From IMG/VR virus record IMGVR_UViG_3300043436_004714, positions 1 through 29,498 of that record: 29,498 nucleotides of DNA; one strand, 5' to 3'. Position numbers and translations under genes: made by a program. This document shows positions 22,809 to 27,862 of this stretch, one piece after another. The first letter of the stretch is position 1. Each line of letters opens with the position of its first letter. Below the pieces are notes generated by a model. It was not told the DNA's origin and did no database searches. It saw only the letters and a program-made list of their open reading frames with translations. Source of the stretch: a virus.

Positions 22809-23216
22809 TTACTTAACCAATAAAAGTGTTGTAATTATTGTTGCAATAGATCCAATAATTGTAATATTTCTTTGTCTTTTAATGGTTTTTATGTTTTTAT
22901 TTAAATCACCAACTTGTTTTTCACGCTCGTTAATTATACTATTATTTAAACCAATAATGGTATCTTTTTCACTAACAATGGTTTTATAATCAGAAATCAA
23001 ACTATCTTTCAAAATACTTTGTTTTTGTAATATATTTACACTATCTCTTGTAACACTAATTTCAGAAACTAGTAATTTATTATCAGCTTTCATTAACAAT
23101 GCGTTTCTAAGACTTGAACATGGTACACAACATGTTGAATCATTTAAAAGCGTTTGCGAACTCATTTGAAATATCCCTGTTAGAGATAGAATTAATACGA
23201 TTAATATCTTTTTCAT
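22809..23216 (-). CDS. Exported coiled-coil protein, spanin-like candidate
   Basis: 135 residues. An N-terminal signal peptide (MKKILIVLILSLTGIFQMSSQ) has a possible cleavage near residue 21, followed by a short Cys-rich stretch (STCCVPC). Residues 45-112 are heptad-like with repeated KDSLISDYK and KDTIIGL patterns. A C-terminal transmembrane segment (NITIIGSIATIITTLLLV) ends at the last residue. No lipobox is clear. The frame overlaps the 3' end of the upstream gene by 77 bases. Periplasmic coiled coil plus membrane anchor resembles spanins, but the family is not confirmed. Confidence 0.5.
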   Translation of the reverse strand: MKKILIVLILSLTGIFQMSSQTLLNDSTCCVPCSSLRNALLMKADNKLLVSEISVTRDSVNILQKQSILKDSLISDYKTIVSEKDTIIGLNNSIINEREKQVGDLNKNIKTIKRQRNITIIGSIATIITTLLLVK

Positions 23217-23475
23217 GGTTTTTTTTCTCTTTATTTAATTTATTAGTTAAGTTAGCTAAATCGGTTTGATATTTGTTTATTTTGGCTACCTTGTTATTAA
23301 CAGATTCATTTAATGAATCAACTTTTTTATTACGATCGATTATCACTTGATTTAATGAATCAACTGTTTTATCATAATGTGATGTATTAATCAACTTTCC
23401 ACTACTTGTAAAAGTAAAATAAGCAGCCGCACCCAATATTAATAAAATTATTGTATAAATTATATAGTTTTTCAT
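23140..23475 (-). CDS. Membrane-anchored coiled coil, inner-membrane spanin-like
   Basis: 111 residues. An N-terminal transmembrane segment (about 4-23, YIIYTIILLILGAAAYFTF) is followed by a long heptad-like stretch: DKTVDSLNQVIIDRNKKVDSLNE and DLANLTNKLNKEKKNHEKDI. This is the layout of Rz-type i-spanins. The overlapping downstream frame (22809-23216) encodes an exported partner candidate, reminiscent of Rz/Rz1 gene overlap, and an amidase-like gene is two genes upstream. Assignment rests on topology and context only. Confidence 0.5.
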   Translation of the reverse strand: MKNYIIYTIILLILGAAAYFTFTSSGKLINTSHYDKTVDSLNQVIIDRNKKVDSLNESVNNKVAKINKYQTDLANLTNKLNKEKKNHEKDINRINSISNRDISNEFANAFK

Positions 23476-24010: not shown

Positions 24011-24619
24011 TTATTTATTTATATTTTTACTTAATTCTTCAAAGTCAAATGCTGGCGATAAATCATAGTGATTTTTGCTAAAATTACTTCGATTAATTAT
24101 TCCATTAAATTTTAAAATATCGGGATTAAATGTATTGTCACCAATAAATCTTTTTTTAATAGAATATTCTATACATAAATAGTCTATTAATTCAATTAGT
24201 ACATTAAATTGTTGTGTTGTGTAGTTAGCCCAATATTTCTTACCTCTCCAAGATTTTTCTATAACATTATTATTGTATAATGAATCTTTCCAGTCGAAAA
24301 ATTTTTTTGTTTTTTTATTTAAATTAAGCCAACCAACATTTTCTAAAGCAATGACAATTGCTGTATCATCAAAAATGTTATCTAAGAAATTAACTTTAGT
24401 TATTTCTGGATCGTAATGTTGGTAAATATTACCATCAATATCAATACTAAATGTGGGAGTTTTTATAATTTGATTATTGGTATATTGATTGATTATTTTA
24501 TTAATAAAATAATCAATCTCATATACCGTATTTACTAGTATTATTTGATTTTTTTTTAAATTAGTGTAATTTTCGTTATTTTTTTTTATAAAAAAAACAC
24601 TTTTATTTAATTTCACCAT
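24011..24619 (-). CDS. Amidase_2-like protein with altered zinc ligands
   Basis: 202 residues from ATG 24617-24619; the frame also has a TTG two codons earlier. The fold pattern of N-acetylmuramoyl-L-alanine amidases is visible: IILVNT (26-31), FSIDIDGNIYQHYDP (57-71), IVIALENVGWL (88-98), a helix from TTQQFNVLIELIDYLC, and NRSNFSKNHYDLSPAFDF (176-193). In active enzymes histidines sit in strand one and in the last motif, with Cys or Asp before PSFD. Here they read Asn30, Arg/Ser177-178 and Leu187, so the classical zinc site seems lost. I recall similar sequences in other Bacteroidota phages, so this looks like a conserved variant. Either a wall-binding protein or a differently built active site. 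Confidence 0.6.
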   Translation of the reverse strand: MVKLNKSVFFIKKNNENYTNLKKNQIILVNTVYEIDYFINKIINQYTNNQIIKTPTFSIDIDGNIYQHYDPEITKVNFLDNIFDDTAIVIALENVGWLNLNKKTKKFFDWKDSLYNNNVIEKSWRGKKYWANYTTQQFNVLIELIDYLCIEYSIKKRFIGDNTFNPDILKFNGIINRSNFSKNHYDLSPAFDFEELSKNINK

Positions 24620-24736
24620 TATCAAATACCATAATATTTTTTAAAAAATTTATTTTACTATCATCATCTTTCTCCGTTTCAATAATAGTTATTTCATTTA
24701 AAAAATCAATGGGTGTTGTTAAATCTTTTTTTTTTC
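24603..24736 (-). other. Candidate programmed -1 frameshift site and 40-codon tail
   Basis: The upstream frame ends GAA AAA AAA AAG ATT TAA, an A10 run at 24726-24735 that includes the dnaX-type heptamer A AAA AAG in the right phase. A -1 slip enters a frame that stays open for 40 codons (DLTTPIDFLNEITII...) and stops at 24603-24605. That frame fills the otherwise empty 99 bases and overlaps the start of the amidase-like gene by 17 bases, the junction style used elsewhere in the array. A sequencing error in the A run would give the same appearance. Confidence 0.55.
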
Positions 24737-25669
24737 GATAGTTTCTTCTTCGTTATCGTTTGTTGTTAATTCTTCTTCAACTTCTTCATCAATATTCTCA
24801 TCCTCAATGATAATATCGTTTGTTGTTAATTCTTCTTCAACTTCTTTATCAATATTTTCATCCTCAATAATTATATCTTTAATTATAGGTTCATCAATTG
24901 TTTCAGTTTCAACATTTTCATCCTCAATAATTATATCTTCAATAATAGGTTCAACTATAACATCAATAACGTTATTTTCTTGGATATTTTCTGGTAATTC
25001 CTCGTAATCATTAGCTACTGTGTTAGTTAAATTATCACTAACAAATTTTTTATCATACTTTTTTAACAATTCTTCAAATTTTTGAAGATCAGTTTGCGTT
25101 GGTTGGTATGGTGGTATATTTTCGTTGATTTCTTTTGATATATCAATTGGTAAAGTTTGTGTAACCGCATCAGTGATTTGATCATTTACTACTTTATTTA
25201 CACCCTCATTTACACCCTCATTTACACCCTCATCTGGTTTAATATAATCAACCAATGATTTGATAAAACCTAATGCAACTAACGGTAATATAGCACCAGA
25301 AACCATCGATAAAATTCTTTTTTGTGTGATAATTTCTTCATCTATTAAACCAAATAGTTCAACCCATGATTGGTAATTTTGTAGATGTTGGTAAGCGAAA
25401 TAAGTATTACCCATTGCTTGCATAGCTGTTAATGTAATAAATAAAGCCCAAACAATACCTTTATTCATTTTTTTCATGGCTATTATTGATGCTAATGATG
25501 CTGCAGCACCAACTTCAAATGCTATTGCTAAAGTTATTGCTAACCATTCTGGATTTGATATTCTAAAGAAATCAATTACGTGTATTGTTGATATAATCGA
25601 GACCATTATATAAAGTGTAACAAAGGTACCAATAATAAAATTTCGTGTTAATTTATTCTCTTTCTGCAT
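24719..25669 (-). CDS. Four-segment membrane protein with acidic repeat tail
   Basis: 316 residues from ATG 25667-25669 (a TTG nine codons earlier overlaps the previous gene). Four transmembrane segments lie at about 10-32, 42-65, 71-93 and 119-141, with conserved-looking AIAFEVGAAASLASI and MQAMGNTYFAYQ; I recall this membrane module in other Bacteroidota phages, function unknown. A linker repeats GVNE three times. The cytoplasmic tail (about 220-316) has 20-residue acidic repeats with IIIEDEN. An A10 run near the end may cause a -1 frameshift that adds 40 residues. Likely cell-envelope or host-membrane role, undefined. Confidence 0.65.
   Translation of the reverse strand: MQKENKLTRNFIIGTFVTLYIMVSIISTIHVIDFFRISNPEWLAITLAIAFEVGAAASLASIIAMKKMNKGIVWALFITLTAMQAMGNTYFAYQHLQNYQSWVELFGLIDEEIITQKRILSMVSGAILPLVALGFIKSLVDYIKPDEGVNEGVNEGVNKVVNDQITDAVTQTLPIDISKEINENIPPYQPTQTDLQKFEELLKKYDKKFVSDNLTNTVANDYEELPENIQENNVIDVIVEPIIEDIIIEDENVETETIDEPIIKDIIIEDENIDKEVEEELTTNDIIIEDENIDEEVEEELTTNDNEEETIEKKKI
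24755..24950 (-). repeat. 60-bp tandem repeats encoding acidic 20-residue units
   Basis: Three units with an exact 60-base period, 24755-24814, 24815-24874 and a more diverged one up to about 24935, encode (P/L)(I/T)x(K/N)DIIIEDEN(I/V)(D/E). The first two are nearly identical at DNA level, which points to recent duplication or slippage. Lies in the tail of the membrane protein. Confidence 0.8.
25200..25235 (-). repeat. Three 12-bp tandem repeats
   Basis: ACACCCTCATTT occurs at 25200-25211 and 25212-25223, with a third copy differing at one base at 25224-25235. It encodes GVNE three times in the linker after the fourth membrane segment. Repeat number may vary among relatives. Confidence 0.85.
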
Positions 25670-25680
25670 ATTATATTTTT

Positions 25681-27564
25681 TTAAGCTATATAGCAATTTA
25701 ATTCATATTTCTCACGCATACCATAAATTTGGATTTGTAAGCTTTTTTTGGTTTCAACCCCATCTTTAAATAAACTGATTGTAAATCTATTAGTAACACC
25801 CTCATCTGGTTTTTTAGGGCCTAAGCCAATTTTCATGGCTGTTTCATCATCACTGTATGTGTAACCATTTCTTTCAGCGTAATCTAAAGCGGCGTTTACC
25901 GCTCCAGTATAACTATCATGGTAAACCTCATATTTATTTTTACCAATGTTATTTCGGTATTCTTTAAGAACATTCATCTTTTCTTCAGTTAATTGATTTT
26001 CATCGATTTGCTCAATTCTGGAATCAATTTGTGATATTAAAATTGTCTTAAATAATTTTTTTGATTCGTTGATATCATTCATAATTTCATCTATGGTAAC
26101 TCCACTAGTTTTTATTGGTGCTTTTAATAATTTAGCAACATAATCTTGACTAACTAAATCACCGTGAATTGTTTCTCCCTCAACCTCATCCAAAGATATA
26201 TGTTTGTTAATTTCTCCAATTATAATGTTAGAAGTTGTTGTGATAACATCTAAATTACCAAGGATACTATCTTTACTACCTCTCCATAAAGCAATATAAT
26301 TTATAGCATATTTTAAGTCTGGTATATCAAACGATTTTAATACAACATAAGCGACAGATTCAGCTTGTAGTTCTAAAATTTCAGACATATTTCTACCAAC
26401 ATAAGCATCTAAAATATGTTTTGTTTTTTCTGTAATTTTAACATCTGAATTATCTGACTTTTCAACCTCAGCTCTGGTTTTTAAATAGGTTTGGTGCATC
26501 AATTCATGAGCAAACTCATGAATTGCGGTAGAAGCTTTACCAACACCAACAGCATCCGTAGAAATTCTAACTTTACCCCCAGCTGAATAACCTTTTTCAC
26601 TACCTTTAGCGTCCTCAACAGCAAAATCAATACCGTAATCTTCATAAACTTTTGTCATAGCTTCAAAAATCTTGTCGGCTATTGGGTTTTCCTCAGTACT
26701 AAACCAATCCAATTTAGGTAATGTGTTAGATGGTTTTTCACCTTTGTCATTAACAACATCAGCAATATCATATACGGGATATAAGATATATGGGGTGGAT
26801 CTAATTGGTTCATTAATTTCGCCTTCCATTTTTTTAATCATGTCTGGTGATAATTTACCATTTTTACCAAACTTTTTCATAAAATTTTCTTTTCTCTCTT
26901 TTTTAATTTGAGCACTTGGCGGTTTAAGTGTTGGTCTCCAAAGAATAATTTGATTAGCACCTTGTTTTGGTGCATAACCTAATTTAAGCCAACCAGATTT
27001 TGAATTAACTTTTGTCGCTTTTCTATTCTGAATAAAAATTAAAAATTGGTTGTTGAAAGAATAATTAGGAAAATTAGATAACCAATCAAAATATTCTTTA
27101 ATTTTTTCTGTCAATCTAACATTATCAACTTCATCAGCTAATTCATTAATAAAGATATCTATTTTTTTATTAAGATCCTCTTTAGTAATAATCGCTTCTG
27201 GTGAAATAGGTGTTGTCATTACAGCATCTCTAACATCCTCAAGCTTTTGTATTAATTCATTAACCTCGTTAGATTTACCTAACTCTTTATTAGCTTCAGC
27301 AACCGCTTTTTTTGCAATATTAATCATAGTTTCAATTGATTGAAATCTATCATTTAAAATCCATTGTCTTTTTGACGGATCATACCAAAATTTATACTTT
27401 TTAAGTATATCTCTTGTGTCAATGATTTCTTTTGTAGCTAAAGTTGGGTTTTCTTGGTCTGACGCAACAATAATTTTATTATATTCTTGGTCATTACCTT
27501 TAAGTACTTTAGTTAGAATTAAAGACTCATTAATTTTTGGTTGTTCTTGTTTAAATATTAACAT
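25681..27564 (-). CDS. ArdC-like N-domain with HExxH metalloprotease and phage C-terminal domain
   Basis: 627 residues. An N-terminal leader (MLIFKQEQPKINESLIL) and a small domain to about residue 75 (YDPSKRQWILNDRF) precede helices. Residues 155-215 match the ArdC/LtrC-type N domain (FPNYSFNNQFLIFIQ, GWLKLGYAPKQGANQIILWRP), known to bind single-stranded DNA. A zinc peptidase follows with HEFAH (349-353) and probable third ligand Glu402 in ELQAESVAY. The last 80 residues (EVYHDSYTGAVNAALDYAERNGY ... LQIQIYGMREKYELN) are a domain I recall in other large phages. ArdC proteins counter restriction; here that role is inference. It likely shares a transcript with its neighbours. Confidence 0.75.
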   Translation of the reverse strand: MLIFKQEQPKINESLILTKVLKGNDQEYNKIIVASDQENPTLATKEIIDTRDILKKYKFWYDPSKRQWILNDRFQSIETMINIAKKAVAEANKELGKSNEVNELIQKLEDVRDAVMTTPISPEAIITKEDLNKKIDIFINELADEVDNVRLTEKIKEYFDWLSNFPNYSFNNQFLIFIQNRKATKVNSKSGWLKLGYAPKQGANQIILWRPTLKPPSAQIKKERKENFMKKFGKNGKLSPDMIKKMEGEINEPIRSTPYILYPVYDIADVVNDKGEKPSNTLPKLDWFSTEENPIADKIFEAMTKVYEDYGIDFAVEDAKGSEKGYSAGGKVRISTDAVGVGKASTAIHEFAHELMHQTYLKTRAEVEKSDNSDVKITEKTKHILDAYVGRNMSEILELQAESVAYVVLKSFDIPDLKYAINYIALWRGSKDSILGNLDVITTTSNIIIGEINKHISLDEVEGETIHGDLVSQDYVAKLLKAPIKTSGVTIDEIMNDINESKKLFKTILISQIDSRIEQIDENQLTEEKMNVLKEYRNNIGKNKYEVYHDSYTGAVNAALDYAERNGYTYSDDETAMKIGLGPKKPDEGVTNRFTISLFKDGVETKKSLQIQIYGMREKYELNCYIA

Positions 27565-27568
27565 TGTT

Positions 27569-27862
27569 TTATTTGTTTTCTAATAAATTTATTTCTTGTT
27601 CAATTTGTGTTTGTCTTTGAACATCCATTAATTTTCTATCAGTTGCTTGTATCATTCTTTTCTCTGATTTTAAACCCTCTATTTTCATTTCTTTTCTTAA
27701 TTGAGTAGTTAAAGTATCAATACCTAACTTAGTATTTTTCATTTCTTTTCTAACTAATTTTAAATTAGAATTTAATGTACATGTTTGTAGCAAAACAAGT
27801 AACATAAAAACAGTTAATATTATGTGACTGTTTGTGTTAAAAAAATTTTTAAATTTTTCCAT
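27569..27862 (-). CDS. Small membrane-anchored coiled-coil protein
   Basis: 97 residues. A single transmembrane segment (about 10-29, SHIILTVFMLLVLLQTCTL) is followed by a Lys/Glu/Leu-rich heptad region (LVRKEMKNTKLGIDTLTTQLRKEMKIEGLKSE) to the end. Topologically similar to the proteins at 5018-5359 and 23140-23475. It lies four bases from the ArdC-like gene's start region and 42 bases after the sigma factor's stop. Function unknown. Confidence 0.58.
   Translation of the reverse strand: MEKFKNFFNTNSHIILTVFMLLVLLQTCTLNSNLKLVRKEMKNTKLGIDTLTTQLRKEMKIEGLKSEKRMIQATDRKLMDVQRQTQIEQEINLLENK

Follow-up and report, generated by a model that had tools for sequence, protein, structure and literature searches.

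A run of exactly ten adenines (A10) near the 3′ end of a phage gene for a four-helix membrane protein is best explained as a programmed transcriptional slip site for RNA polymerase, a reading to which we assign a probability of roughly 0.57 on the sequence comparisons below. That recoding takes place at this run (site 1), at either the transcriptional or the translational level, is a broader claim that those comparisons make highly probable. According to the proposed mechanism, RNA polymerase would sometimes add one A, or drop two, while transcribing the A10, and ribosomes on the slipped mRNAs would be led into the −1 frame, so that the membrane protein would reach about 355 residues and its flexible acidic linker would close with the conserved tail of 40 residues. 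On mRNAs that had not slipped, or had lost one A, a stop would follow within a few codons, and the product would be about 317 residues long with no tail. Ribosomes on the slipped mRNAs would end over the start codon of the neighboring amidase gene, and slippage may in this way raise amidase translation by coupling.

An A10 Run Precedes an Open −1 Frame

The window analyzed here is the 29,498-base virus record IMGVR_UViG_3300043436_004714, taken from position 1 to 29,498; its features are collected in Table 1. The main-frame membrane protein consists of a hydrophobic domain of about 145 residues followed by a variable acidic repeat linker and the end ..EETIEKKKI, and on the minus strand its gene closes with GAA AAA AAA AAG ATT TAA, where a single codon separates the in-phase heptamer A_AAA_AAG from the 0-frame stop. 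The sequence-only reading, made earlier from the letters of this DNA, had described an A10 with this heptamer in phase just before the stop, which is borne out to the base, as is its account of a −1 frame open across the 99 bases between the main-frame stop and the amidase ATG and overlapping the next gene start. The −1 frame translates to 40 residues, DLTTPIDFLNEITIIETEKDDDSKINFLKNIMVFDNGEIK, and stops 17 bases into the amidase gene. When the tail was shuffled with its dinucleotides preserved, 0.5% of the shuffles were open over this length. Separate initiation of the tail was considered and rejected: upstream of its final 10 codons the −1 frame contains neither ATG nor GTG nor TTG.

Table 1. 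Positions of the features discussed, in window coordinates except where a locus is named
Feature	Position	Strand	Remarks
Four-helix membrane protein gene, main-frame form	24719..25669	(-)	ATG at 25669; ORF also open from TTG 25696
Slip site G-A10-G	24725..24736	(-)	codons GAA AAA AAA AAG; in-phase A_AAA_AAA and A_AAA_AAG; exactly ten A at 24726-24735, G at 24736 and at 24725 on either side
Main-frame stop TAA	24719..24721	(-)	one codon past slip site
−1 frame tail, 40 codons + TAA	24603..24725	(-)	stop at 24605-24603; conserved end INFLKNIMVFDNGEIK; similar main-frame tail in L020 and L032
Amidase_2-like N-acetylmuramoyl-L-alanine amidase, next gene	24011..24619	(-)	ATG at 24619; L020 homologue above Pfam cut-off
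Linker repeats	24740-25230	(-)	in-frame repeats (IIIEDENIDEEVEEELTTND; DTVH); L005:3720-3880
Rz-like spanin match	23140-23475	(-)	E 7e-6
Signal-peptide-like ORF	22809-23216	(-)	overlaps end of Rz-like ORF
Metallopeptidase-like gene	25681-27564		L020:2475-4001, L032:2282-3820, L005:993-3284
Small conserved membrane protein	27569-27862		..IEGLKAEKRMIQSTDRK..
Second A10 gene (site 2)	L116:3735-5005		L007 phage; also L149-L152, L159-L162

The Run and the Tail Recur in Related Phages

A protein search of IMG/VR with the membrane protein alone found no relative, and the family was opened by searching with the neighboring amidase and then with an alignment, the best 80 of 330 relatives being kept. 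Three records from three other metagenomes (L005, L006 and L007) have the same gene order as the window; their membrane protein genes end in GA10 followed by G or C and a stop after 0-1 codons, and their −1 frames of 38 to 41 codons end inside the amidase start. The tails of all four share the end INF[LI]..I.VF..GE, and the length of the run is identical in 4/4 records. The string GA10[GC] occurs once per record in the window, L005, L006 and L007 (29, 141, 44 and 299 kb, respectively), always at site 1, and is absent from three sister records. The −1-frame translations of the relatives align well above shuffles (0 or 1 of 2000 as good), with the other two frames aligning less well. Upstream of the site the linker varies freely in length and sequence among the relatives, so site 1 has been kept within an otherwise drifting stretch; linker length ranges from about 50 to 170 residues.

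The recurrence of A10, near stop and tail in three other records, which the sequence-only reading had proposed looking for, lies far beyond chance by these alignments, and the conserved A10 and −1 tail support its prediction of two forms of the membrane protein, with and without the 40 residues. Two aspects of site 1 nonetheless weigh against the transcriptional version: the site is carried by only about three independent lineages and its stop may be shared by descent, and outside the last 16 residues the tail evolves fast, with a dN/dS of about 0.4 over few sites between L006 and L007.

Sister Phages Encode a Similar Tail in the Main Frame

Most members of the family, among the best 80 of 330 relatives, have a main-frame C terminus formed by a short motif specific to their clade. 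In two syntenic groups, L020/L021 and L032/L033, the main frame ends in ..NNGIENIMVFTKDGGQ or ..DDSQ without an A run, and the overlap with the amidase start is similar to that in the window. The window tail aligns to the L020/L032-type main-frame end with a score of 47, better than any of 2000 shuffles, while the L006 tail matches less well, with 17 of 2000 shuffles scoring as high, and the L005 tail shows no significant match in the shuffle test. Because the main frame of L020 and L032 runs into a similar tail with no A run, the tail is, on this evidence, a real protein end, to which sister phages have two routes. Two trees differ on which arrangement came first: in the amidase tree the slip group is the sister of the in-frame pair (83/90), and in the membrane-domain tree the in-frame pair is weakly nested inside the slip group.

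A Second Gene Carries the Same A10 Arrangement

The L007 phage holds only one other A10 in a called gene (L116:4088-4097). At this second site a 122-codon ORF ends GTT TTA AAA AAA AAA GTC TAG, the stop lying one codon after the A10, and about 300 more codons follow in the −1 frame. The same arrangement, again with exactly A10, is present in L149-L152 (72 to 100% identity) and L159-L162 (57 to 58%), and the samples of L005, L006 and L007 each contain the second gene, in L007 on the same contig as site 1. An IMG/VR search tolerant of run length (A8 to A14) returned 8 stretches at site 2, all of them (8/8) with A10, two of which lie on one palindromic-looking contig. L159 and L160 (IMGVR_UViG_3300009419_002279) represent the same gene found twice, inverted, on a 17.5-kb contig that is probably a palindromic assembly artefact, and are counted once.

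The run at site 2 stands in a different codon phase from that at site 1. In the distant phage G020 (L146) the N-terminal domain of the site 2 gene falls within a single frame of 804 codons, in which it is followed by an acidic linker and by a stretch weakly resembling the start of the C-terminal part; the gene probably encodes a structural protein. A GTG start for the second part, as read in L149-L151, was rejected, the codon being GTC in L152, L159, L161 and L162. A third candidate in the L007 phage (L113:9972-10298, A7 followed by C TAA) turned out to overlap, in the usual way, a PhoH-like gene with an ATG of its own, and many other −1 openings in the coding-strand survey have the next gene's ATG at the stop.

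Long A Runs Are Avoided in Coding Strands and the Heptamer Is Not

Counts were pooled over five records, two of which are close relatives, so that they are not fully independent. In coding strands, A9 was observed 12 times against 45.7 in synonymous shuffles (ratio 0.26) and runs of at least ten A 7 times against 33.5 (ratio 0.21), whereas A6 and A7 are not avoided and in-phase A_AAA_AAG is close to expectation (69 against 75.1). Runs of 11 or more A were not seen in the data, and A10 is among the longest. In G003 (L108-L122) about 28 of 37 A9 runs fall outside called genes, and in G003 and the window runs of ten and longer are nearly absent everywhere, with an abrupt cut at ten.

At site 1 an in-phase X_XXY_YYZ heptamer is present, but the base after the run is not fixed, being G or C, and A_AAA_AAG becomes A_AAA_AAC in L006/L007. 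Folding of the RNA downstream revealed no conserved stem-loop, z being near 0 except in L005, where a stable hairpin (z about −4) lies downstream of the A10. Since runs of at least nine A are avoided, the heptamer is not, and no RNA structure is conserved, run length seems to matter; the working element looks like the length of the run rather than the heptamer, which points to slippage by RNA polymerase. The earlier description of the site as dnaX-type fits the in-phase heptamer but is less well supported in view of the AAC of two relatives, the normal frequency of the heptamer elsewhere, the lack of a conserved stem-loop and the varying phase of the run, and A10 slip site, probably transcriptional, is the better term.

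Conserved A-run length combined with a conserved shifted extension is regarded as the signature of purposeful transcriptional slippage (PMC1088944), and insertions prevail in transcriptional slips on A and T runs (PMC5574713). Since the phage supplies a sigma factor of its own, it is probably transcribed by the host RNA polymerase. Against the transcriptional version, ribosomes too can slip or slide on A10, and replication instability could instead explain the avoidance of long A runs.

The strongest competitor is programmed −1 ribosomal frameshifting, in which lysyl-tRNAs on A_AAA_AAA or A_AAA_AAG would slip back by one base on a uniform mRNA. In its favor, slippery heptamers are in phase at site 1 in 4/4 records and at site 2 in all copies, the direction of the shift is always −1, and L005 has its stable hairpin downstream. 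Ribosomes can, moreover, slide on long A runs (PMC4363877), and for this reason we keep ribosomal frameshifting as a possible, though clearly less probable, explanation. It sits poorly with a heptamer whose letters are not kept and which, unlike runs of at least nine A, is not avoided elsewhere, with a hairpin that is not conserved in sequences other than L005, and with a run of exactly ten A that exceeds the need of a heptamer.

Less Probable Explanations

A more sweeping form of the slippage reading, in which exact A10 runs would act as a general recoding switch, runs of at least nine A would be purged except where slippage is wanted, in no fewer than two unrelated genes, and site 1 would set the proportion of membrane protein that bears the tail and also, through translational coupling, dose the amidase and so tune lysis or entry, strikes us as unlikely. 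Still less likely is a tolerated indel, or pseudo-pseudogene, in which a one-base change would have misframed the tail, unavoidable slippage on the A run would rescue it, and the short form would have no function. The in-frame tail does work in this sense, as in L020/L032, and rescue of frame by slippage on A runs has been described in bacteria (PMC1088944), but A10 has been kept at two genes through deep divergence although a one-base change would restore the frame, and the main-frame stop lies 0-1 codons past the run in both genes.

Replication readily slips on long A runs, and phage populations could on that account be mixtures of A10 and A11 genomes in which the tail is phase variable; with neither A9 nor A11 as consensus at either site in any copy found, this appears very improbable. 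The least probable explanation is the homopolymer or assembly error that the sequence-only reading had offered as its alternative, with a true run of A11 and the tail simply in frame: A10 is among the longest runs in data that contain none of 11 or more, and the tail is in frame in L020/L032, yet GA10[GC] stands once in each of four records, so that the same mistake would be needed in four assemblies from different samples, and the 8/8 stretches at site 2 add further copies from several metagenomes, with no in-frame copy among them. Relatives with a main-frame tail and no A run, which that reading had taken as a mark of error, do exist in L020 and L032, but they do not point to error, because the A10 is itself conserved in the four records.

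Comparison with Known Recoding Sites

Purposeful slippage at A runs of nine or longer is known from IS elements (Deinococcus and others) and from Thermus dnaX (PMC1088944, PMC5009743). The present sites resemble these in a run of at least nine A of conserved length, a conserved extension in the shifted frame, early stops in other frames and the avoidance of long A runs elsewhere in coding sequence; they differ in belonging to phage genes, for a membrane protein and a second, probably structural protein. In spa13/spa32 of a type III secretion operon, the slippage extension overlaps the start of the next gene and strongly affects its expression (PMC5009743). Site 1 shares the C-terminal extension, here by proposed slippage, and the end overlapping the next gene start, although the proteins are unrelated and an effect on the amidase is here hypothetical.

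The in-phase A_AAA_AAG near a stop recalls the −1 ribosomal frameshift of Escherichia coli dnaX, where, however, frameshifting leads to the short product and not, as here, to the long one; moreover, no stem-loop is conserved at site 1 and the AAG is not kept in L006/L007. Lambda G/GT and the phage T3/T7 capsid use −1 frameshifts (PMC5009743), and there too −1 recoding in a tailed phage would give one protein two alternative C termini, but the proteins and gene place are different and the slip site here is a plain A10. A tail-assembly chaperone frameshift of the G/GT kind, with a short soluble ORF pair before the tape measure, was considered and rejected, a helical membrane protein beside an amidase being found instead. 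In Campylobacter phage CPt10, a methyltransferase gene changes frame in a poly-A tract, and its authors propose slippage (PMC2853527); as here a phage gene changes frame at a poly-A tract, but CPt10 is a single case, in which its authors saw a frame-shift mutation whose gene could perhaps still be expressed through slippage. What is unusual in the present case is the exact conserved run at two genes of one phage group, together with sister phages that encode a similar tail directly.

The Membrane Protein, Its Neighbors and the Host

The hydrophobic domain is predicted to form a helical bundle (AlphaFold model, pLDDT 83), similar in fold to unnamed phage membrane proteins (E 1e-7) and, at a weaker level, to a DUF2637 phage protein (E 3e-3). 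Pfam and PHROGs gave no sequence match for the membrane protein, neither to DUF2637 nor to another family, and PDB sequence and fold searches with the membrane domain found no match. Most probably the gene yields a membrane protein bearing a flexible linker, which in one form would end in a short tail that docks on a binding partner and in the other would lack it.

In other phages of the family, as judged by eye, the membrane protein gene is preceded by a small conserved membrane protein and followed by genes that are probably structural. The small protein is paired with the four-helix protein across the family, and it is also found upstream of the family gene in L027, L035, L054, L046, L064, L060, L068 and L085; in the window clade a metallopeptidase-like gene lies between the two. 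That gene is mosaic, the L020 version resembling that of the window and the L032 version that of L005, despite very similar neighbor genes in L020 and L032. In the window clade the membrane protein gene precedes the Amidase_2-like gene and Rz-like spanins, and the Rz-like match with its overlapping signal-peptide-like ORF downstream places the amidase in a lysis-like cassette. A single member of the family (L103) is found in a Bacteroidetes MAG, and on this basis the host of these large uncultured phages is probably a Bacteroidetes bacterium.

Implications

Because gene callers misplace the ends of both proteins, the annotation of two conserved proteins is wrong and a conserved tail goes unseen. 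The pair of genes that share an exact A10, set beside relatives with similar parts in one frame, forms a clean natural comparison of the benefit of slippage, and the same comparison bears on whether slippage would act in transcription or in translation. The overlap with the amidase start, finally, offers a testable link from slippage to a lysis-type gene.
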